A DNA stretch of 64,000 nt from Anaerolineae bacterium (GCA_013178015.1 JABLXR010000001.1:62001-126000); one strand, 5' to 3'. Positions 35,378-51,222 are shown, counted from the first letter of the stretch. The notes: a model not told the origin generated them from the letters alone. Program-made: numbers and translations.

Positions 35378-35407
35378 TTGACACAGGACGCCAGCACGCG
35401 GTATAGT
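35378..35407 (+). promoter_or_regulatory. Sigma-70-type promoter upstream of the Fe-S reductase cluster
   Basis: TTGACA (35378-35383) and TATAGT (35402-35407) separated by 18 bases. The next gene starts at 35671, so the transcript would have a leader of roughly 255 bases. Confidence 0.7.
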
Positions 35408-35449
35408 GCCGGCATTCAGCGTTACCGCGCTCTCTGAGCTGTCCACCGC

Positions 35450-35524
35450 GCAACCACGAGCGGTGCCGCCGCTCTGGCGTCGTGGTTGCCGGGACGCTGG
35501 CGCGGCAGTGCGCGACGACTGCCG
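35450..35524 (+). ncRNA. Structured 5' leader with nested hairpins, unclassified
   Basis: gcaaccacga (35450-35459) pairs perfectly with tcgtggttgc (35480-35489), with an inner gagcgg/ccgctc stem. A second stem follows, cggcagt (35503-35509) with actgccg (35518-35524). It does not show the conserved boxes of cobalamin, SAM or TPP riboswitches as far as can be judged by eye. It could be a regulatory leader or simply GC-rich DNA. Confidence 0.4.
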
Positions 35525-35670
35525 GCCTGGTCGGTATCCGCGCAGGGCGGTTGCTCCGCCCGCGAGGCCAAGGGAGCAGCAGCGCCGGTGGCGGCCTGCT
35601 GTCATCGGTGCTAGGTCTCTTGCCTTGACACACGAGGGTGGACCGTACGAGGACACAGGAGGCGTGGCAA

Positions 35671-36651
35671 GTGTCGCAGGCAACGGACAGGACGCTGACG
35701 CAGAGAGTCAAGGAGCATGCCAGGCAACACGGGGCCGATCTCGTCGGTGTGGCCAGTATGGACCGCTTCGAGGGAGCCCCGAAGCAGATGGATCCGAGGT
35801 ACATCTTCCCCGACGCGAAGGCCGTGCTCGTCTTCGGCTTCCGCATCCCCAGGGGCACCCTTCGCGGTATCGAAGAGGGCACCTTCTTCTACGTCTACTC
35901 CAGCCTGGGCTACGCCGGCATCAACGTGGTGCAGCAGCCCGTCCTCCTTTGGAGCGTAGCCGCCTTCCTGGAGGACGAAGGCTGGGAAGCCGTGCCCATC
36001 CCCAACCACCTCGACTGGGAAAACACCGGGAAGCACGGCAAGGACCCGGTGGTCCACGCCCGAGTCAACGAGGCCTGGAGCCGGCCCGTCTCTGCGGACA
36101 AGCCTGCGCCTGATGTCTTCATCCATCTGCGCATCGCCGCCTTCTGCGCCGGACTGGGCGAGATAGGATACAGCAAGCTCCTCCTCACCCCGGAGTTCGG
36201 GCCTCGGCAGAGGTTGGCCGCCATGCTCACTGACGCCCCCCTGGAGCCCGATCCTCTCTTCGAGGGCGAGCTGTGCGATCGCTGTATGCTGTGCGTGCGC
36301 GACTGCACCGGCAGAGCCATCAGCCCCTCGGAGACAATCAAAGTGACCGTGGCCGGGCGGCAGCTGGAGTGGGGCAGGCTCGACCACTACCAGTGCAGCC
36401 GCTACTTCTGCGGCGCCAGCAGGGAGCACAACCCGTTCATGGTCAGCGCCGAGGACGAGCGGGGGTTCACCCAGGAGGTCTCCCAGGCTCAGCAGTACAA
36501 GCTCACCCCTGCCTACGGCTACGGGCGGGCACTCGAGGGAGCGCGAGGGTGCATCAGAGCCTGCATGGTGCACCTGGAGGAGACCGGCAAGCTGAACCGT
36601 AGCTTCCACAACCGGTTCCGTAGCCGTGAGCCGTGGAGGCTGGAGCGGTGA
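35671..36651 (+). CDS. QueG/reductive-dehalogenase-like 4Fe-4S protein, copy 1
   Basis: 326 residues from a GTG preceded by AGGAGG eight bases upstream. An N-terminal QueG-like domain (GADLVGVASMDRF, residues about 17-29; then FPDAKAVLVFGF) is followed by a ferredoxin-like part, CDRCMLCVRDCTG, and a later pair CIRAC. This resembles the cobalamin/Fe-S part of epoxyqueuosine reductase and reductive dehalogenases. There is no Tat signal or RdhB anchor, so dehalogenation is not supported. Substrate unknown. It aligns end to end with the gene at 37033. Its stop overlaps the GTG of the truncated fusion ORF that follows. Confidence 0.78.
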   Translation: MSQATDRTLTQRVKEHARQHGADLVGVASMDRFEGAPKQMDPRYIFPDAKAVLVFGFRIPRGTLRGIEEGTFFYVYSSLGYAGINVVQQPVLLWSVAAFLEDEGWEAVPIPNHLDWENTGKHGKDPVVHARVNEAWSRPVSADKPAPDVFIHLRIAAFCAGLGEIGYSKLLLTPEFGPRQRLAAMLTDAPLEPDPLFEGELCDRCMLCVRDCTGRAISPSETIKVTVAGRQLEWGRLDHYQCSRYFCGASREHNPFMVSAEDERGFTQEVSQAQQYKLTPAYGYGRALEGARGCIRACMVHLEETGKLNRSFHNRFRSREPWRLER

Positions 36652-36959
36652 AGCTCTCGGTCGGGTATCGGTTGCCTGCCGACGAGGAAGACGACTGGAT
36701 CGCCTCCATCGTGGCCGGGCACCGCCAGTCGGTGGCTGAGGCCTACTTCGCCTGCGAAGGCATGGCGAGCGGGCGGGCGCCCGTCGGATGGCGCGGCGGT
36801 GAGGTCGACCGGACGGGCCAGGGCGGAGCTCAAGTGGACTGCAATTGCTACCAGCCTCTGATTGAGATGTTGCAGGAGGCGGATCCCGATCTGACTGTGG
36901 AGCCAAGCTGGGGGCCCGGTGGTGCCGTCGAAGGCCAGGCCAAGCTGCCCTGGGTCTGA
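36648..36959 (+). pseudogene. Chimeric remnant: start of a U32-like gene fused to a piece of a solute-binding protein gene
   Basis: 103 codons from a GTG that overlaps the preceding stop (GTGA). Residues 1-47 match the start of the U32-like protein at 37995 in 25 of 47 positions (shared YFA, GMASGRA). After a short bridge, the segment at 36848-36946 matches residues 70-102 of the binding protein at 39223 in 25 of 33 positions (PLIEM, PDLTVEP). The stop comes right after. So most of a U32-like gene and both ends of a binding-protein gene are missing. It is best read as the collapsed first copy of a three-gene tandem duplication. Whether the fused ORF is translated is unknown. Confidence 0.85.
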
Positions 36960-37032
36960 GCTTCATGAGGAGCCGAGCTCACACTGCCCTGTACGTTGGA
37001 AGCCAATCCCTCAGGGGCGGAGGAGAATCCGA

Positions 37033-37998
37033 ATGGCCGCACTGACCGACAAGGCGTTCACCCAGAGAGTCAAGGAATACGCCAAGCTTCAGGGAGCCGA
37101 CCTGGTCGGCGTCGCCTCCATGGACCGCTTCGAAGGAGCACCGAAGCAGATGGACCCCCGCTACATCTTCCCTGACGCCAAGGCCATGATGGTCTTCGGC
37201 TTTAGGATACCCAGGGGTGCTCTGCGGGGGATAGAGGAAGGCACCTTGTTTCATGCCTACTCGAGCATGGGATACATGGGTATCAACTTCGTGCGACAAC
37301 CAGTGGTGATATGGAGCATAACGAACTATCTGGAGGATGAGGGATACGAAGCCGTACCTCTTCCTAACTTCGCCTTCGAGTGGAGCAGCCTGGTTCTTCA
37401 CACGGGTGAGCAGCGGCCGGCGGTGAGGCATCATGTCTACCCCTACCAGCCGCATACGGGCTCGGGTCGCGCCCCGTGGAGCATCCCTGTGGACGCGAAC
37501 AAGCCGGCGCCGGACGTGTTTGTCCACTATCGGATCGCCGCTGTAGCCGCTGGGCTTGGTGAGATCGGCTATAGTCACCTCTTCCTGAGTCCCGAGTTTG
37601 GTCCCAGGCAGAGACTGGCCTGCTTGCTCACCGATGCGCCTCTCGAACCCGACCCCTTGTACGAAGGGCAGATCTGCGATCGCTGCATGCTCTGCGCTCG
37701 CGACTGCACCGGCAACGCCATAAGCACCACGGAGACCGAGAAGGTGGTCGTTGCCGGCAAGGAGTGCGAGTGGGGCAAGTTCGACATCGAAAGGTGCTGG
37801 AAGGCTTTCCAGGACCCGCCACCCGAGTACAACCCCTTCCTCGGCGATCCATCGCCGACCTACTGGGGAGGAAGGGCACTGGAGGGCGCCAGGGGCTGTA
37901 TCCGCGCCTGCATGGTACACCTCGAGGAGACCGGGAGGCTGACCAAGCCGTTCCGCAAACCGTTCCGAACTAGGAGGCCTTGGAGAATCGACCAATGA
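37033..37998 (+). CDS. QueG/reductive-dehalogenase-like 4Fe-4S protein, copy 2
   Basis: 321 residues. It shares with copy 1 the GADLVGVASMDRFEGAPKQMD block at the N-terminus, the CDRCMLCARDCTG cluster motif and GCIRACMVHLEETG near the end. The middle segment (about residues 115-150) differs and is longer here. AGGAG lies seven bases before the ATG. The stop overlaps the ATG of the U32-like gene (ATGA), as in copy 1, which points to a real physical or metabolic partnership. Reaction unknown. Confidence 0.8.
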   Translation: MAALTDKAFTQRVKEYAKLQGADLVGVASMDRFEGAPKQMDPRYIFPDAKAMMVFGFRIPRGALRGIEEGTLFHAYSSMGYMGINFVRQPVVIWSITNYLEDEGYEAVPLPNFAFEWSSLVLHTGEQRPAVRHHVYPYQPHTGSGRAPWSIPVDANKPAPDVFVHYRIAAVAAGLGEIGYSHLFLSPEFGPRQRLACLLTDAPLEPDPLYEGQICDRCMLCARDCTGNAISTTETEKVVVAGKECEWGKFDIERCWKAFQDPPPEYNPFLGDPSPTYWGGRALEGARGCIRACMVHLEETGRLTKPFRKPFRTRRPWRIDQ

Positions 37999-39104
37999 GG
38001 TTTTCGGTCGGGTACCAACTACCCCTCGCGGACGATCAGCCCACGATAGTGGACTTGGTCCGGCTCTACCGCCAGTCCATAGCCGAAGTCTACTTCGCTT
38101 GGGTGGGCATGGCGAGCGGGCGGGCCAGGGTAGGACACTACGACGGCGACGTTGACTGGGGCAGTCAGCACCAGATCGAGGCCGACTTGACCCGCCTATC
38201 CGATATGGGCGTGGGCCTGAGCCTCCTTCTGAATGCCAACTGCTACGGCGGCCTGGCTGTGTCCACCGCCCTGGCCAATGAGGTGAGCTCATTGGTGCGA
38301 CACCTGCTGTCGTTTGCTCACATTGCCGTCGTCACTACCACGTCGCCCTTCGTCGCCCACGTCATCAAGCAGAGCTGGCCCGAGATTGACGTGAGAGCCT
38401 CCGTCAACATGCGAATCGGCACCGTGGAGGGCATGCAGTACCTCAGCGACCTGTTCGATAGCTTCTGTGTCCTGCGAGACGACAACCGAGACCTCGACAG
38501 GCTGGGTGAACTGAAGGAGTGGGCTGACCAGAACGGCAAGAGGCTGACCATCCTTGCCAACAGCGGCTGCCTGTACGCTTGCTCTGGGCAGACCTACCAC
38601 GACAACCTGGTGGCCCACGAGGCGGAGGTGAGTCGCACCGTCAACGGGAGCGACTGGAACCCAGTGACTTGCTGGCGATACTACGCCGAATCCGGCCATT
38701 GGGTCTCCTGGATGAAGAGCACCTGGATTCGGCCGGAGGACGTGGCTAGCTACGAGCCGTACGTCTCACAGGTGAAGCTGGCGACGCGCATGCACAGCAG
38801 CCCGGGCAAGGTCATTGATGCTTACGCGAGGGGCAAGTTCCACGGCAATCTGATGGACCTGATGGAGCCCTCACATTCCCTGCTGCTTCATCCGTGCATT
38901 GTCGCCAATGATCGCTTCCCAGCCGATTGGTTCGAGCGGACCTCCGCCTGCCACAGGCAATGCCGGACTTGCAGCTACTGCGAGGAAGTCTTGGCCCGAG
39001 TGTTGGTACGTGAAGATGCGCTTCTGCCGAGGAGCGCACGGAGAGGAAACGGCCCGCTGGCGGCAGCCGTGGAGACCCCCGCGGCGGGGCCCGAAGGGGG
39101 GTGA
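37995..39104 (+). CDS. Peptidase-U32-like protein with C-terminal cysteine cluster
   Basis: 369 residues from the overlapping ATG. A U32/UbiU-UbiV-like barrel is suggested by the strand pattern and SVNMRIGTVEGMQYL, then ANSGCLYACSGQ. Cysteines at 192, 196, 226, 301, 319, 323, 326 and 329 could ligate one or two Fe-S clusters, the last four in a CxxxCxxCxxC string. UbiU/UbiV and other U32 members are Fe-S proteins that act in oxygen-independent hydroxylation or RNA modification, not proteolysis. The family assignment is by eye and the function is unknown. It follows the Fe-S reductase in both intact and fossil copies. Confidence 0.68.
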   Translation: MRFSVGYQLPLADDQPTIVDLVRLYRQSIAEVYFAWVGMASGRARVGHYDGDVDWGSQHQIEADLTRLSDMGVGLSLLLNANCYGGLAVSTALANEVSSLVRHLLSFAHIAVVTTTSPFVAHVIKQSWPEIDVRASVNMRIGTVEGMQYLSDLFDSFCVLRDDNRDLDRLGELKEWADQNGKRLTILANSGCLYACSGQTYHDNLVAHEAEVSRTVNGSDWNPVTCWRYYAESGHWVSWMKSTWIRPEDVASYEPYVSQVKLATRMHSSPGKVIDAYARGKFHGNLMDLMEPSHSLLLHPCIVANDRFPADWFERTSACHRQCRTCSYCEEVLARVLVREDALLPRSARRGNGPLAAAVETPAAGPEGG

Positions 39105-39210
39105 GCAGTACACCGCCCGAACGGTCGATACGTCGGCAGCGTAGCAGTGAACGAAAGGAGGTGATCGGTACACGATGCAGTAGACGGATTCGCCGGTAGC
39201 GTAGCAGTAA
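39091..39210 (+). repeat. Imperfect 60-bp direct duplication before the binding-protein gene
   Basis: Bases 39091-39150 and 39151-39210 align register for register: a purine-rich Shine-Dalgarno-like tract, gtac-ac, a cg-rich middle and gtagcagt. The duplication spans the end of the U32-like gene and its spacer, and places three purine-rich sites in a row before the ATG at 39223. Confidence 0.75.
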
Positions 39211-39222
39211 AGGAGGAACACG

Positions 39223-40575
39223 ATGGTTGCGGAAGCCATCAGCGTCTCGCGTCGGCGCCTGCTCAAGCAGGCCATGGTGGGCGGTATTAGTGTGTTTGTG
39301 GCCGCCTGCGTCCCCGCTACTCCCGCCCCGGCGCCCGCCACCGCCCCACCGGAAGAGGTGGCTCCAACCAGGGCACCGGCCACAGTGAGGTTCCTCACTC
39401 AGGGCGGCGCCCAGGTGGCGTTCGATCGCTACGAACCGCTGATCGAGATGTTCCAGGAGGCAAATCCCGACCTGACTGTGGAACCGATCTGGGAACCCGG
39501 TGGTGCCATCGAAGTCCAGACCAAGCTCCTTACCCTCATCGCCGCCGGCGATGCGCCTGACGTCTACTGGGCGCATACCTATACCAACGCCGGTCAGGCC
39601 AAGCGGGACATCCAGATGGACATCCAGCCCATGGTCGAGGCAGACCCGTCGGTCAACCCCGAGGACTTCCTGGCCGGCGCATGGGCGGACTTCAATGTGG
39701 CCGGCAAGCAGATCGGCATCCCTCGAGAGACCACCAGCACCGTCCTCATCTACAACAAGGCCCTGTTCGAGGAACTCGGCCTGCCTCTGCCCACCGACAA
39801 CTGGACCTGGAGCGACTTCCTGCTGGCCGCCCAGGCCATGACCACGGGGGAAGGTGCGGAGCGAGTCTACGGCACCGCGGACTGGAACCTGAACCGCAAC
39901 ACCTGGATCAAGATGTGGCAGAAGGGTGGCGACGTCGTCAACCAGGACCGCACTCAGTTCACCATGAACCAGGAGCCCAGCGTCTCCCAGGTAGCACTGA
40001 TCCAGGACTGGCACCACGACCCCCAGATCCACATCCCCGGCGTGGAGAAGGGGGGCTTCTCCACCGGCGATCTGTTCACCACCGGCCGCATCGGCATGTT
40101 CCCCCAGTTCTCGGTATTCGATAACGTCATGCCCTCCGAGTTCGAGTGGGACATCGCCCACCTGCCCCGGGACGCTGATGATGTGCAGACCACCAGAGTG
40201 GCCTCTGCTGGCCACAGCATGTACTCTGGAACCAAGCAGCCCCAGGCAGCCTGGCAGTGGATGTCGTTCCTAACCACAGAGGAGGCGTTCTGGCACTGGG
40301 TCGCCACTGGCCTGAAAGTGCCCTCTCGCATCTCGGTGGCCCAGGACCCGAAGTTCCTCGATCCCACCCAGCCGCCTGAGCACGCCCAGATCATGATTGA
40401 CGCCTTCGCCTACGGCCGTCCCGAGCCTGTGGCCGGGGACTGGATCGGCGTACACCGCGAGATCCAGGCGGCATTGGACTCCATCTACGGCATCGAGAAG
40501 CCCGACGTGCAGGCCTCGCTGGACGCCATCGCTGAACGGGTCAACGAACTGATCGCCTTCGTGCCAGGCGAGTAG
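39223..40575 (+). CDS. Extracellular sugar-binding lipoprotein of an ABC importer
   Basis: 450 residues. A Tat-like SRRRLLKQA leader, lipobox Cys29 (FVAAC) and Pro/Ala linker precede a family 1 solute-binding fold (FQEANPDLTVEP; later PQAAWQWMSFL). It serves the permeases at 42800 and 43772, while no ATPase gene is present, so a shared MsmX-type ATPase is presumed. AGGAGG lies six bases before the ATG. Confidence 0.92.
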   Translation: MVAEAISVSRRRLLKQAMVGGISVFVAACVPATPAPAPATAPPEEVAPTRAPATVRFLTQGGAQVAFDRYEPLIEMFQEANPDLTVEPIWEPGGAIEVQTKLLTLIAAGDAPDVYWAHTYTNAGQAKRDIQMDIQPMVEADPSVNPEDFLAGAWADFNVAGKQIGIPRETTSTVLIYNKALFEELGLPLPTDNWTWSDFLLAAQAMTTGEGAERVYGTADWNLNRNTWIKMWQKGGDVVNQDRTQFTMNQEPSVSQVALIQDWHHDPQIHIPGVEKGGFSTGDLFTTGRIGMFPQFSVFDNVMPSEFEWDIAHLPRDADDVQTTRVASAGHSMYSGTKQPQAAWQWMSFLTTEEAFWHWVATGLKVPSRISVAQDPKFLDPTQPPEHAQIMIDAFAYGRPEPVAGDWIGVHREIQAALDSIYGIEKPDVQASLDAIAERVNELIAFVPGE

Positions 40576-40589
40576 GAAGAGGTAGCAGC

Positions 40590-42803
40590 TTGCACCTTCG
40601 GAACAGGCGTCTCCATCTGGAGTGGGACGACACCACCGGCAACCTCCTGCGGCTGGTGGATGTCCGGAGCGGCCACAACTTCGCCAGCGAGCGAGCAGGT
40701 GGCTCTTCCCTGTGGCACCTGCAGCTGGACGAAGGGCCACCCATCAGTGCCGAGGACGCATCTACCTTCGAGTGGCAGGCTCTACCGGGCGCCCGTAAGG
40801 AAGGCATACTGATGCGGTGGCGGGGGTTCGACGCCCGAGGCCAGCAAGACCTCCAGGCTGAGGCCACCGTTACGCTAGACGACGATGGCCTCAGCCGCTG
40901 GCGGCTGAGCCTGCGTGGCTTGCAGGCTGAGCTTCGAGCCGTGCACTTCCCTCGGGCGCCCGATCTACAGCGCGCCGCCGGCCAGGAAGTACTAGCCTTG
41001 CCGGTCGGCAGTGGGCGTCTGATCCGGGAACCGCGCCAGGATGGTCGGTGCTCCAGAGGCTGGACGCTGTTCTACCCGGGCCCGCTTACCATGCAGTGCA
41101 TGGGACTGTACAGCACGAGCGGGCCCGGGCTCTACCTGGCTTGCGAGGACGGGGCGGGCTACAGCAAGGCTTTCGTCTGGGATGGCAACAGCGATCAAGC
41201 CACACTGGGATGGGCTGTGCTGCACTTCCCTTCCCTGCCCCTGGAACCTGGCGGCCAATACGTCATGCCCTACGACGCCGTGATTGGCACCTTCGAGGGC
41301 GACTGGCTCACCGTGGCAGAGATCTACCGCGCCTGGGCCCTGGAACAGGCCTGGGCCAGGAACAGCCGGCTGCGCCAGGGAGCGGTCCCCGCTTGGCTGC
41401 GGGAGACCGTCCTATGGGCCTGGAACCGGGGCACCTCTCACGAAGTGGTGCCCGGGGCGCTGGCCCTGAAACGCGCTAGCGGTGTGCCCACCAACCTGCT
41501 CTGGCACTGGTGGCACAACTGCCCCTACGACGTCGGCTTCCCTGAGTACCTCCCGCCTCGCGAAGGCGCTGATTCCTTTCGCCAGGCCGTAGTTGAGCTG
41601 CAACGAAGCGGCGTCCACGCCTTCCCTTATGTCAATGGCCGCCTATGGGGCCTTCGCACCGAGAGCTGGGTCTCCGAGGGCGCCGAACGGGGAGCGGCCA
41701 TCGGGCCCGATGGGAGCATCTACGAGGAAGTCTACAACACCTTCACCGGTGCGCCCATGGCCCCCATGTGCGTGGCCCACTCCCTCTGGCAGGACAAGAT
41801 CCGCTTTCTCCTGGGGGCACTGGCCAACGACCTCGGCTCTCCCGGCATCTACCTAGATCAGGCAGCCATCGCCCGTCCCGTTCCCTGCTTCAACGCGCGC
41901 CACGGCCACCCCCTCGGCGGAGGCAACCACTGGGTGCGCGGCTATCACCGCATGATGCAGGGGGTAAGAGAACATTTCGACGACGGTGCAGTAGCCGTTG
42001 CCACCGAGGGTTGTGCCGAACCGTACCTAGATGCCTTCGACGCCTTCCTGGTGCTTGACCCGAGCATCGAGCGCTACTCGGCGACGCACTCGGCGTGCAG
42101 TCACTGGGAGGCCATCCCCTTGTTCAGCGCCGTATACCACGGCCATGCCCTGGCCTTCGGGAGTTACAGCTCCCTCACCGAGCCCCCTTACGACGAGAAG
42201 TGGCCGCAGGAGACCGCTCCTTCGGAGAGGCTAAAGTTGCTCGACCGCAAGTTCAGTGCGCAGCTTCGGGTGGAACTGGCGCGCCAGCTCGTCTGGGGAA
42301 GCCAACTGATGGTGGCCAACCTTCGTCCCGAGCATTGGGAGCAGCGGCCCGAGGAGTTGGCGTTCGTCAGCCAACTAGCCCGACTGGCCCATGCCGCGCC
42401 GATGTTCCTGCGCGACGGCACCTTGGTGCGGGCGCCACACTGCGACGTCCCCTGGCTTAGGTTGCCCTTCATCACCCTGTCCATCTACGAGCGATCGGCA
42501 GCCGAAGTGGTGCACGAGCGCGGGGTGCCTGCGGCCATAGCCGCCGCCTGGCAGGCCCCCGACGGCTCTGTGGCGCTGATCATGGTGAACATCAGCGACG
42601 AGCCGGTAGGTCTAGATGTGCCGCTGGATCCTGCCCAGCAATGGGGCCTGGCGGGCCGCTGGCAGGCGGCAATCCATGGCGCCGAGGGCACAGAAGCCGT
42701 TTCCGGGCCCTTCCGCGGCTTCACTGACCTCGAGGTGCTTCTCCCGCCGCACTCGGCCCGGATGATCGAGGTCCGCTCGGCAGGCGGAATGGGGGCGTCG
42801 TGA
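40590..42803 (+). CDS. DUF6259-type putative glycoside hydrolase
   Basis: 737 residues, no signal peptide, so cytoplasmic. An N-terminal beta-sandwich (about 1-250) precedes a TIM-barrel-like region with GIYLDQ around Asp423, a plausible catalytic nucleophile, and a C-terminal beta domain. This order fits large retaining glycosidases of the DUF6259 group. The TTG start at 40590 follows AGGAAGAGG. It lies between the binding protein and the permeases, so it should act on the imported sugar. Specificity unknown. Confidence 0.7.
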   Translation: MHLRNRRLHLEWDDTTGNLLRLVDVRSGHNFASERAGGSSLWHLQLDEGPPISAEDASTFEWQALPGARKEGILMRWRGFDARGQQDLQAEATVTLDDDGLSRWRLSLRGLQAELRAVHFPRAPDLQRAAGQEVLALPVGSGRLIREPRQDGRCSRGWTLFYPGPLTMQCMGLYSTSGPGLYLACEDGAGYSKAFVWDGNSDQATLGWAVLHFPSLPLEPGGQYVMPYDAVIGTFEGDWLTVAEIYRAWALEQAWARNSRLRQGAVPAWLRETVLWAWNRGTSHEVVPGALALKRASGVPTNLLWHWWHNCPYDVGFPEYLPPREGADSFRQAVVELQRSGVHAFPYVNGRLWGLRTESWVSEGAERGAAIGPDGSIYEEVYNTFTGAPMAPMCVAHSLWQDKIRFLLGALANDLGSPGIYLDQAAIARPVPCFNARHGHPLGGGNHWVRGYHRMMQGVREHFDDGAVAVATEGCAEPYLDAFDAFLVLDPSIERYSATHSACSHWEAIPLFSAVYHGHALAFGSYSSLTEPPYDEKWPQETAPSERLKLLDRKFSAQLRVELARQLVWGSQLMVANLRPEHWEQRPEELAFVSQLARLAHAAPMFLRDGTLVRAPHCDVPWLRLPFITLSIYERSAAEVVHERGVPAAIAAAWQAPDGSVALIMVNISDEPVGLDVPLDPAQQWGLAGRWQAAIHGAEGTEAVSGPFRGFTDLEVLLPPHSARMIEVRSAGGMGAS

Positions 42804-43729
42804 GCCTGCGCGCGCTGGTGAGCGGGTGGCGCAGCAGACGCGGTGGTCTGTTGTGGGCCGAGACGAGGGATGCCTACCTGTTCCTTCTGCCCTGGATCGC
42901 GGGCTTCGTCCTCTTCACCGCCGGGCCCATGATCGCCTCGCTATACATCTCCTTCACCAAGTGGGAGATCGTCACCCCGTCGGTGTGGGTCGGGTTGGCG
43001 AACTACGCCAGGCTGATCCGCGACGACCGTTTCTTCCTATCTCTGTACAACACGGCCTTCTACGTGTTCCTCGGCGTGCCTCTGCACCTGTTCCTGGCCC
43101 TGCTGGCGGCGCTCGCGGTGAACCTAGACTTGCGCGGCATACGCATCTTCCGCACTTTGTATTACGTGCCCTCCATCACCCCTGCAGTCGCCAACTCCAT
43201 CCTGTGGTTGTGGATCTTCCATCCGCAGTGGGGTCTGGCCAACGGTCTGTTGCAAAGCGTCGGCCTCAAGGGGCTCTACTGGCTCCAGGATCCTAAGCTG
43301 GCCAAGCCTTCATTCATCATCATGAGCTTCTGGACCATCGGGGGCCAGATGGTCATTCTGCTTGCCGGCCTAAAGGGCATCCCCCAGAGCTTCTACGAGG
43401 CAGCCCAGATAGACGGGGCCAACACGCGCCAGCGGTTCTGGAAGATAACCTTGCCTCTGCTTACTCCTGCTCTGTTCTTCAACCTGATCATGGCCATAAT
43501 AGGCGCCTTCCAGGTCTTCACTCAGGCTTACATCATGACCGAGGGCGGACCGAACTACGCTACCCTCTTCTACGTGCTCTACCTGTACCGCATGGCCTTC
43601 GAGAACTTCCGGATGGGGTACGCCTCCGCCATGGCCTGGGTGCTATTCACCATCATCCTCCTCTTCACCCTGCTGCAGTTCCGCATCTCGGACCGATGGG
43701 TCTTCTATGAGAGCAGCTTGCGAGCGTAG
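42800..43729 (+). CDS. Sugar ABC transporter permease, MalF/UgpA-like
   Basis: 309 residues, six membrane helices, and the EAA loop EAAQIDGANTRQRFWKITLP. The GTG at 42800 overlaps the stop of the hydrolase gene (GTGA). It forms a heterodimeric pore with the next gene product. Confidence 0.92.
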   Translation: MSLRALVSGWRSRRGGLLWAETRDAYLFLLPWIAGFVLFTAGPMIASLYISFTKWEIVTPSVWVGLANYARLIRDDRFFLSLYNTAFYVFLGVPLHLFLALLAALAVNLDLRGIRIFRTLYYVPSITPAVANSILWLWIFHPQWGLANGLLQSVGLKGLYWLQDPKLAKPSFIIMSFWTIGGQMVILLAGLKGIPQSFYEAAQIDGANTRQRFWKITLPLLTPALFFNLIMAIIGAFQVFTQAYIMTEGGPNYATLFYVLYLYRMAFENFRMGYASAMAWVLFTIILLFTLLQFRISDRWVFYESSLRA

Positions 43730-43771: not shown

Positions 43772-44683
43772 ATGGTCACCAAGGGCAACGCGAGCCTAGA
43801 GACGACCCAACTGGCGAGACCCATTGTTGACTGGGGCCTAGCAGCCAAGCGGATCCGCCGGGCGCTGCGGGCCGCCTTCTGGTACGCGGTGCTCAGCTTC
43901 TTCGCCGTGGTGCTGGCCATGCCGCTTGCCTGGCTCGTTTCCACTTCCCTGAAGACGGGAGCGCAGACGTTCGTCATGCCTCCCAAGTGGATACCGGAGC
44001 CCATTGTCTGGGATAACTACTCGGCCGCCTTCCGGGCAGTCCCGTTTCACCGCTACTTCTGGAATACCATCCAGATCGTGGTGTTCGCCACCCTGGGCAC
44101 TCTCGTCACAGCGTCTATGGCCGCGTTCGCCTTCGCCAGGCTGCGGTTCCCCGGGCGCAGCTTCCTCTTCGGGCTGGTACTCTCAACCATCATGCTCCCC
44201 AACGTCATCACCCTGATTCCCACCTTCATCGTCTTCCGCGCCTTGAAGTGGATCAACACTCTCCTGCCGCTCATCGTCCCCTCGTGGCTAGGCGGCGGCG
44301 CTTTCAACATCTTCCTGATTCGCCAGTTCTTCATGACTCTCCCCTACGATCTGGACGAGTCGGCCCGCATAGACGGGGCGAGCAACTTCCGCATCTACTC
44401 CAGCATCCTCCTGCCCCTCTCCAAGCCAGTCGTAGCCACCGTGGCCATCTTCTCCTTCATCCATCACTGGAACGACTTCTTCCTGCCCCTGATCTATCTG
44501 CAAGACACGAAGAAGTGGACCATGGCCATCGGTCTACAAGGTTTCAAGGACCTCTACTCCACCAGCTGGAACCTAATGATGGCCGCTTCGACGGCGATGA
44601 TCCTGCCTCTGCTGGTGCTCTTTTTCCTGGCCCAGCACTACTTCGTGGGCGGCATCCATCTCACCGGGATCGCCGGGAGGTAG
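43772..44683 (+). CDS. Sugar ABC transporter permease, MalG/UgpE-like
   Basis: 303 residues, six membrane helices, EAA loop ESARIDGASNFRIYSSILLP, and the usual C-terminal AQHYFVGG segment. A GGAGAG motif precedes the ATG. Second permease of the importer; no ATPase follows. Confidence 0.92.
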   Translation: MVTKGNASLETTQLARPIVDWGLAAKRIRRALRAAFWYAVLSFFAVVLAMPLAWLVSTSLKTGAQTFVMPPKWIPEPIVWDNYSAAFRAVPFHRYFWNTIQIVVFATLGTLVTASMAAFAFARLRFPGRSFLFGLVLSTIMLPNVITLIPTFIVFRALKWINTLLPLIVPSWLGGGAFNIFLIRQFFMTLPYDLDESARIDGASNFRIYSSILLPLSKPVVATVAIFSFIHHWNDFFLPLIYLQDTKKWTMAIGLQGFKDLYSTSWNLMMAASTAMILPLLVLFFLAQHYFVGGIHLTGIAGR

Positions 44684-50801: not shown

Positions 50802-51222
50802 CCCTGGGCGTGCCCGCTCCCCGAAAGCACAAGAGGAGTGCGCGCGCCTACGCGCGCCATGCCTCCAAGTACACAGCGCACCCTGGGCGTGCCCGCTCCC
50901 CGAAAGCACAAGAGGAGTGCGCGCGCCCACGCGCGCCATGCCTCCAAGTACACAGCGTGCCCTGGGGGTACCCACTCCTCGAAAGCACAAGAGGAGTGCG
51001 CTCGCCCACGCGCGCCATGCCTCCAAGTACACAGCGTGCCCCGGGAGTGCCCGCTCCTCGAAAGCACAAGAGGAGTGCGCGCGCCTACGAGCGCCATGCC
51101 TCCAAGTACACAGCGTGCCCCGGGAGTGCCCGCTCCTCGAAAGCACAAGAGGAGTGCGCGCGCCCACGCGCGCCATGCCTCCAAGTACACAGCGTGCCCT
51201 GGGGGTACCCCATTTCTCGGGG
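50802..51222. repeat. Five 79-bp tandem repeats plus a partial sixth
   Basis: Units start at 50802, 50881, 50960, 51039 and 51118, with a partial at 51197. Each carries a ctcctc/gaggag stem (perfect in units 3-5) around gaaagcacaa and a gcgcg/cgcgc stem, then catgcctccaagtacacagcg. Copies differ at only a few sites, mostly in the first 20 bases. The 79-base period is not a multiple of three, so long open frames across it rotate through frames and are artefacts. The rest of the 1.17-kb gap up to 51819 holds no supported gene. Confidence 0.95.

Follow-up and report, generated by a model that had tools for sequence, protein, structure and literature searches.

We analysed a 64,000-nucleotide (nt) stretch of Anaerolineae bacterium DNA (GCA_013178015.1, JABLXR010000001.1:62001-126000; hereafter the window, to which all positions refer). 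In it, a 103-codon open reading frame (ORF) at 36648-36959 joins the beginning of one U32-like gene (U32A) to an internal piece of the gene for a sugar-type solute-binding protein (SBP) of an ATP-binding cassette (ABC) transporter. The fusion ORF lies between two reductase genes, redA and redB, and is followed downstream by an intact U32-like gene (U32B) and by the intact SBP gene. We think it rather likely that two reductase-U32 (red-U32) modules came to be stacked in front of a sugar ABC operon, and that the first of them lost its U32 gene through a rearrangement at a microhomology. The original prediction had read the locus as a tandem duplication of a three-gene block (reductase, U32-like, SBP) followed by an in-frame deletion. 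Our analysis upheld the in-frame fusion of pieces from these two genes, in an ORF that looks decayed and was absent from the other genomes searched, but did not support a single three-gene tandem duplication. The features of the locus are as follows.

35671-36651, + strand: redA, intact reductase assigned to the reductive-dehalogenase/QueG superfamily; GTG start, 326 amino acids, every invariant cysteine retained
36648-36821, + strand: U32A remnant, the leading 57-58 codons of a second U32-like gene; its GTG start overlaps the redA stop
36819-36821, + strand: CAG shared with both parents at the join, a microhomology in the same register as U32B 38166-38168 and as SBP 39400-39402
36819-36946, + strand: copy of SBP codons 60-102, continuing the reading frame of the U32A remnant
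36947-37032, + strand: spacer holding the stop of the fusion ORF (TGA, 36957-36959) and the redB leader
37033-37998, + strand: redB, second reductase, 321 amino acids, with a ~19-residue deletion common to the G753/G758 reductases
37995-39104, + strand: U32B, intact U32-like TIM-barrel protein by family profile, fold and cysteine conservation; 369 amino acids
39223-40575, + strand: SBP, sugar-type extracellular solute-binding protein of an ABC transporter (PF01547, E=4e-28), parent of the fragment
40590-42803, + strand: DUF6259 protein (PF19773, E=5e-103), in the same operon as SBP
42800-43729 and 43772-44683, + strand: two ABC permeases (PF00528) of the same operon, which adjoin the binding protein in relatives

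Composition and probable decay of the fusion ORF

The ORFs, strands and frames were as originally predicted, except that the redA stop codon (TGA, 36649-36651) moves the end of this gene to 36651. Both reductases are joined to the following U32 start by a 4-nt stop/start overlap (GTGA at 36648-36651 and ATGA at 37995-37998), also as predicted, and redA, redB, U32B and the transporter genes are all intact. Alignment of the DNA of 35400-37032 with that of 36960-40700 gave three significant blocks: one in the reductases (E=1e-73), one running from the reductase 3′ end into the U32 5′ end (E=4e-23), and one pairing 36819-36946 with 39400-39527 (81% identity over 128 nt, E=3e-31). These E values indicate that the similarities far exceed chance, and the claimed relation of the fusion ORF to the genes at 37995 and 39223 is borne out.

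In the encoded protein, codons 1-57 were identical to the product of the U32-like gene at 37995 in 28/57 positions and codons 58-100 to SBP codons 60-102 in 31/43; both matched stretches are slightly longer than the ~47 U32-like residues and the SBP residues 70-102 first noted. A breakpoint scan placed the junction anywhere within 36818-36822, in frame with both parents. The CAG at 36819-36821 corresponds to CAG codons at 38166-38168 (Q58 of the U32-like gene) and at 39400-39402 (Q60 of SBP), and the two parents lie at offsets of 1347 and 2581, a difference of 1234 bp. The SBP match ends at 36946, and the fragment has neither the natural start nor the natural end of the SBP gene. The 86-nt spacer downstream resembled no other part of the window more closely than shuffled sequence did, so the second (3′) junction cannot be placed. 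A side observation concerns the leader of the intact SBP gene, where a 28-nt motif occurs twice, 60 nt apart (39127-39214; 82%).

The fusion ORF is most likely a decayed, non-functional scar, a reading that rests on the residues lost from both families and on the absence of a comparable fusion elsewhere. At 24 positions, ten orthologous binding proteins all agree; the intact SBP follows them at every one of these, and the fragment differs at 9. When the amino-acid differences in the SBP part were polarised with the orthologues, all 12 fell on the fragment branch. The U32 part had 11 departures versus 5, and it has lost W36 (to C), the tryptophan of the YF(P/A)W motif that is kept in all 12 close relatives, as well as W55 (to R), the tryptophan of DW kept in 11 of the 12. 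Loss of residues that are invariant in functional homologues is thus seen in this ORF, as expected of a pseudogene. No comparable short fusion was detected by U32B searches of 396 genomes of the class and 400 of the phylum or by searches of the own genome; among the genomes searched, the ORF was found in one only and is not a short fusion conserved in many.

Histories of the reductases and the binding protein

The reductase history appears, from the trees, to be a mosaic. We added reductases from 18 of 46 genomes of the class that contains the Armatimonadetes locus L009. For residues 148-326, a clade of redA and redB was rejected (approximately unbiased (AU) test, p=0.001, trees with Armatimonadota homologues), and redB formed a clade with the reductases of G753 and G758 (loci L147/L149; support 98/91). 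The grouping of redB with these two reductases was also obtained at 95/93, and at 92/92 in a trimmed set. The three share the ~19-residue deletion and an FQxPxPExNPFLxxP signature, while redA retains the FCGAS...EDxxGF segment of G752, G768, G769 and L009. A placement of redA nearer to L009 than to redB was contradicted by few-taxon trees and partly restored with the added Armatimonadota genomes. For residues 148-326, these trees show redA and redB as members of different pre-existing sub-lineages and not as simple local copies. Residues 1-110, however, unite the two genes, which suggests an old gene conversion; homogenisation of the first ~110 residues would be the simplest reading of this region. 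In the genomes G001 and G002 (same genus and same family), no U32B or redB homologue was found at the thresholds used, so no near outgroup is available.

The GC content at third codon positions is 0.87/0.88 for redA/U32A (the latter a piece of 57 codons only) and 0.76/0.80 for redB/U32B, consistent with two modules.

The duplicated parts also seem to be unequal in their synonymous differences (Nei-Gojobori). These were 0.65 for redA/redB (95% interval 0.59-0.73), 0.56 for the U32 pieces (0.38-0.73) and 0.40 for the SBP piece against its parent (0.21-0.60). By Fisher's test, the SBP piece differed from the reductases (p=0.015) and not from the U32 pieces (p=0.34). Resampling of 42 reductase codons gave p=0.003, a value that ignores clustering along the gene, and among overlapping 42-codon windows of the reductases, 8/266 were at 0.40 or lower. 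Among orthologues, this SBP region gives 0.54-0.79 and is not a slow one. The fragment also shares with the window's own SBP states that orthologues lack (71% versus at most 57%). The lower synonymous difference and the shared states together indicate that the SBP piece is specific to this lineage and probably of later origin than the split between the reductases.

Orthologues of the binding protein were 62-78% identical in 19 genomes of the same class. Neighbourhoods on both sides of SBP were read in nine relatives; in these, permeases adjoin SBP, and neither a reductase nor a U32-like gene was detected near it at E<=1e-8; a tenth neighbourhood (G059, L075) begins at a contig end, and the region upstream of its SBP is not visible. 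As SBP and the permeases occur there with no detected reductase or U32 gene, the red-U32 pair would most simply be an addition to the sugar ABC operon, and the triplet would have been assembled in the lineage of the window. A relative with two full red-U32-SBP copies, the state expected under the original prediction, was not seen among ~800 genomes of the class and phylum or in 11 contig loci, although absence from such a sample is weak evidence.

Origin of the locus

In the sequence of events that we favour, a module would consist of two translationally coupled genes, one for a reductase of the cobalamin superfamily and one for a U32-like protein. Two such modules would have been stacked ahead of the transporter operon, with redA and redB drawn from different sub-lineages of their family, in which tandem arrays are habitual. 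A break in U32A may then have led to its in-frame joining, at the CAG, to a copied piece of the SBP gene; the join is read directly in the DNA and the mechanism is what we infer. The copied piece could stem from a secondary duplication that extended into the SBP gene, from a single-crossover integration of a second module with its own SBP allele, or from templated insertion. In the first two cases, a partial SBP gene would have been set beside the first module and joined to U32A by a deletion; in the last, a single step of templated repair would suffice. The result would be a 103-codon scar with a coupled start, a persisting redA, and redB and U32B as the working pair.

Several observations weigh against this proposal. 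For residues 1-110, redA and redB are sisters (100/99), although the alternative was not rejected (p=0.094). Full-length genes gave the same sisterhood in smaller samplings (97/95), and it was not rejected for the full length (AU p=0.22). Given these results, there may have been one old duplication with partial (C-terminal) replacement afterwards. By a small margin, the U32A fragment has more identities with U32B (28/57) than with any outside homologue (at most 24/57). The age test rests on a fragment of 126 nt, and gene conversion between SBP copies would mimic youth. A microhomology of 3 bp is weak evidence and does not strongly support any particular joining mechanism.

Among the routes to the copied piece, templated insertion is possible, though we would not call it probable. 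It supposes that the modules were already stacked, that ~128 bp of SBP were copied at the CAG during repair of the U32A break and then joined to sequence upstream of redB, and that there was never a second SBP gene. The insert is internal to SBP, with neither start nor end present, the 5′ join has a microhomology, and change on the fragment branch is near-neutral while the SBP branch has zero amino-acid change, all of which agree with such an insertion. On the other hand, the junctions are old and the 3′ join is unreadable, and a duplication with its edge in SBP plus one deletion explains the data equally.

We regard as unlikely the single tandem duplication of red-U32-SBP, in which both copies would have been retained for long until a deletion ran from U32A codon 58 to codon 60 of the first SBP copy, with a second loss taking away what was left of that copy. 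The repeated gene order, the 4-nt overlaps in both copies, the fact that the nearest relatives of the fragments are the neighbouring genes, and the sisterhood of the reductases in residues 1-110 and, in small samplings, at full length speak in its favour. However, this sisterhood fails for residues 148-326, the redB deletion is found in outside reductases, the synonymous divergence of SBP is below that of the reductases, and in the nine relatives read on both sides the transporter genes stand without a detected pair. The SBP copy must, moreover, also end at codon 103, which demands a second event or a duplication edge there.

That the fusion ORF encodes a functional small protein, for example a regulator of redA, we consider very improbable. 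The frame is open, the start is translationally coupled and no stop has been acquired, but the product has lost invariant residues of both parent families, matches nothing in Pfam or NCBIfam, is confined to a single genome, and lacks both the SBP export signal and every conserved U32 cysteine. An assembly artefact joining unrelated reads is hardly credible: the assembly is a 97-contig draft, but the copies differ by 19-39% in DNA, which makes collapse or mis-joining of near-identical repeats unlikely, and the reading frame and overlap are coherent within the interior of a 182-kb contig.

The stacking of two modules with loss of the first U32 gene thus remains our preferred account. The scar itself is of modest interest as ordinary gene-cluster turnover. 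The locus does call for caution, as an apparent tandem duplication can consist of separately derived paralogues that were stacked and carry a partial conversion tract. Elsewhere in the window, a tandem repeat (79 bp x 5.2 copies, 93% matches) lies at 50802-51210 inside overlapping ORFs on both strands.

The red-U32 pair and its relation to known systems

Profile and fold matches place the reductases in the cobalamin reductive-dehalogenase/QueG superfamily. They are far under the cut-offs of TIGR02486 and TIGR00276 (redA matches TIGR02486 at E=5e-11, beneath the cut-off, and the reductases reach 43-50 bits of the 160 required). Sequence profiles match PceA-type and NpRdhA structures over the core and the first Fe-S (iron-sulphur) motif, and the top Foldseek matches are reductive dehalogenases (E~1e-11, with a TM score of only ~0.5). 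The CxxCxxCxxxC motif is conserved, along with three more invariant cysteines (242, 294, 298), which gives seven candidate ligands of the eight that two 4Fe-4S clusters would need. For U32B, the Peptidase_U32 score of 13.4 bits is below the gathering score of 22.4. This profile was matched in 8 of 12 members of its family (best E=3e-5), and the first Foldseek match of U32B, 5d88, is a U32 protein (E=4e-9) with the U32 TIM-barrel fold. Eight cysteines are conserved (C83, C192, C196 and C226; C319, C323, C326 and C329), and residues 347-369 form a C-terminal extension of low confidence. From folds and motifs, the reductases are probably B12/Fe-S reductases, and their U32-like partner is probably an Fe-S TIM-barrel enzyme acting on an imported sugar-derived compound.

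Red-U32 pairs turned up in two genomes of the same class and, beyond it, in lineages that include Armatimonadota, Planctomycetota and Bacillota. Neighbouring reductases were present in 10/11 genomes, as read from the match table. G752:C325 (L133, 1-4700) carries four reductases in a row with a U32 gene, belonging to more than one clade, and G009:C341 shows the order red-red-U32, the same layout as redA-redB-U32B here.

Further stacks were observed. Three to five reductase paralogues, sometimes of different clades, stand beside a U32-like gene in L133, L144 and L008:4900-10800. In a same-class genome (L042, 3690-5734), a peptide-type binding protein, a separate tandem pair of sister reductases and a U32-like gene follow one another in this order. 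The own genome has, on C24 (L045, 36161-38091 region), a second sugar-type ABC operon and then two more tandem reductases, which belong to deeper clades that also form neighbouring pairs in Armatimonadota and Bacillota genomes.

In a limited literature search, no report emerged of red-U32 pairs in sugar operons, nor of the broader association, seen here across phyla, between reductases of the cobalamin superfamily and U32-like Fe-S proteins in the vicinity of transport and carbohydrate genes. We tentatively suggest that the two genes may form a mobile, undescribed anaerobic two-enzyme module that has repeatedly been inserted and stacked beside carbohydrate transport operons in several phyla, where it could act on sugar-derived substrates in a new redox step; one such stacking, with loss of a redundant partner, would then be what the window represents. 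This recurrent module is a more interesting lead than the scar.

Scars of microhomology-mediated deletion or duplication and chimeric pseudogenes are known in bacterial genomes. Like these, the present locus has a short motif at the join, a decayed chimeric ORF and an adjacent working copy; it differs in the apparently unequal age of the parent parts and in the lack of a simple sister relationship between the flanking paralogues. With the members of the reductive-dehalogenase/QueG superfamily (PceA, NpRdhA, QueG; 4uqu, 8q4h, 4ras, 5d08), the reductases share profile, fold and the CxxCxxCxxxC motif, but they are short, are devoid of the extra domains of those enzymes, and occur in tandem arrays, some of them near sugar or peptide transport and carbohydrate genes. 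The U32 enzymes of the UbiU/UbiV type hold [4Fe-4S] clusters and have a role in O2-independent hydroxylation (PMC6747719; PMC11574389). With the U32 Fe-S hydroxylases (UbiU/UbiV, RlhA, TrhP), U32B has in common the TIM barrel, weak Peptidase_U32 matches and conserved cysteines. Its cysteine spacing, however, differs from the usual CX6CX15CX3/4C (PMC6747719), and it also has an extra C-terminal CX3CX2CX2C and a reductase as its operon partner.

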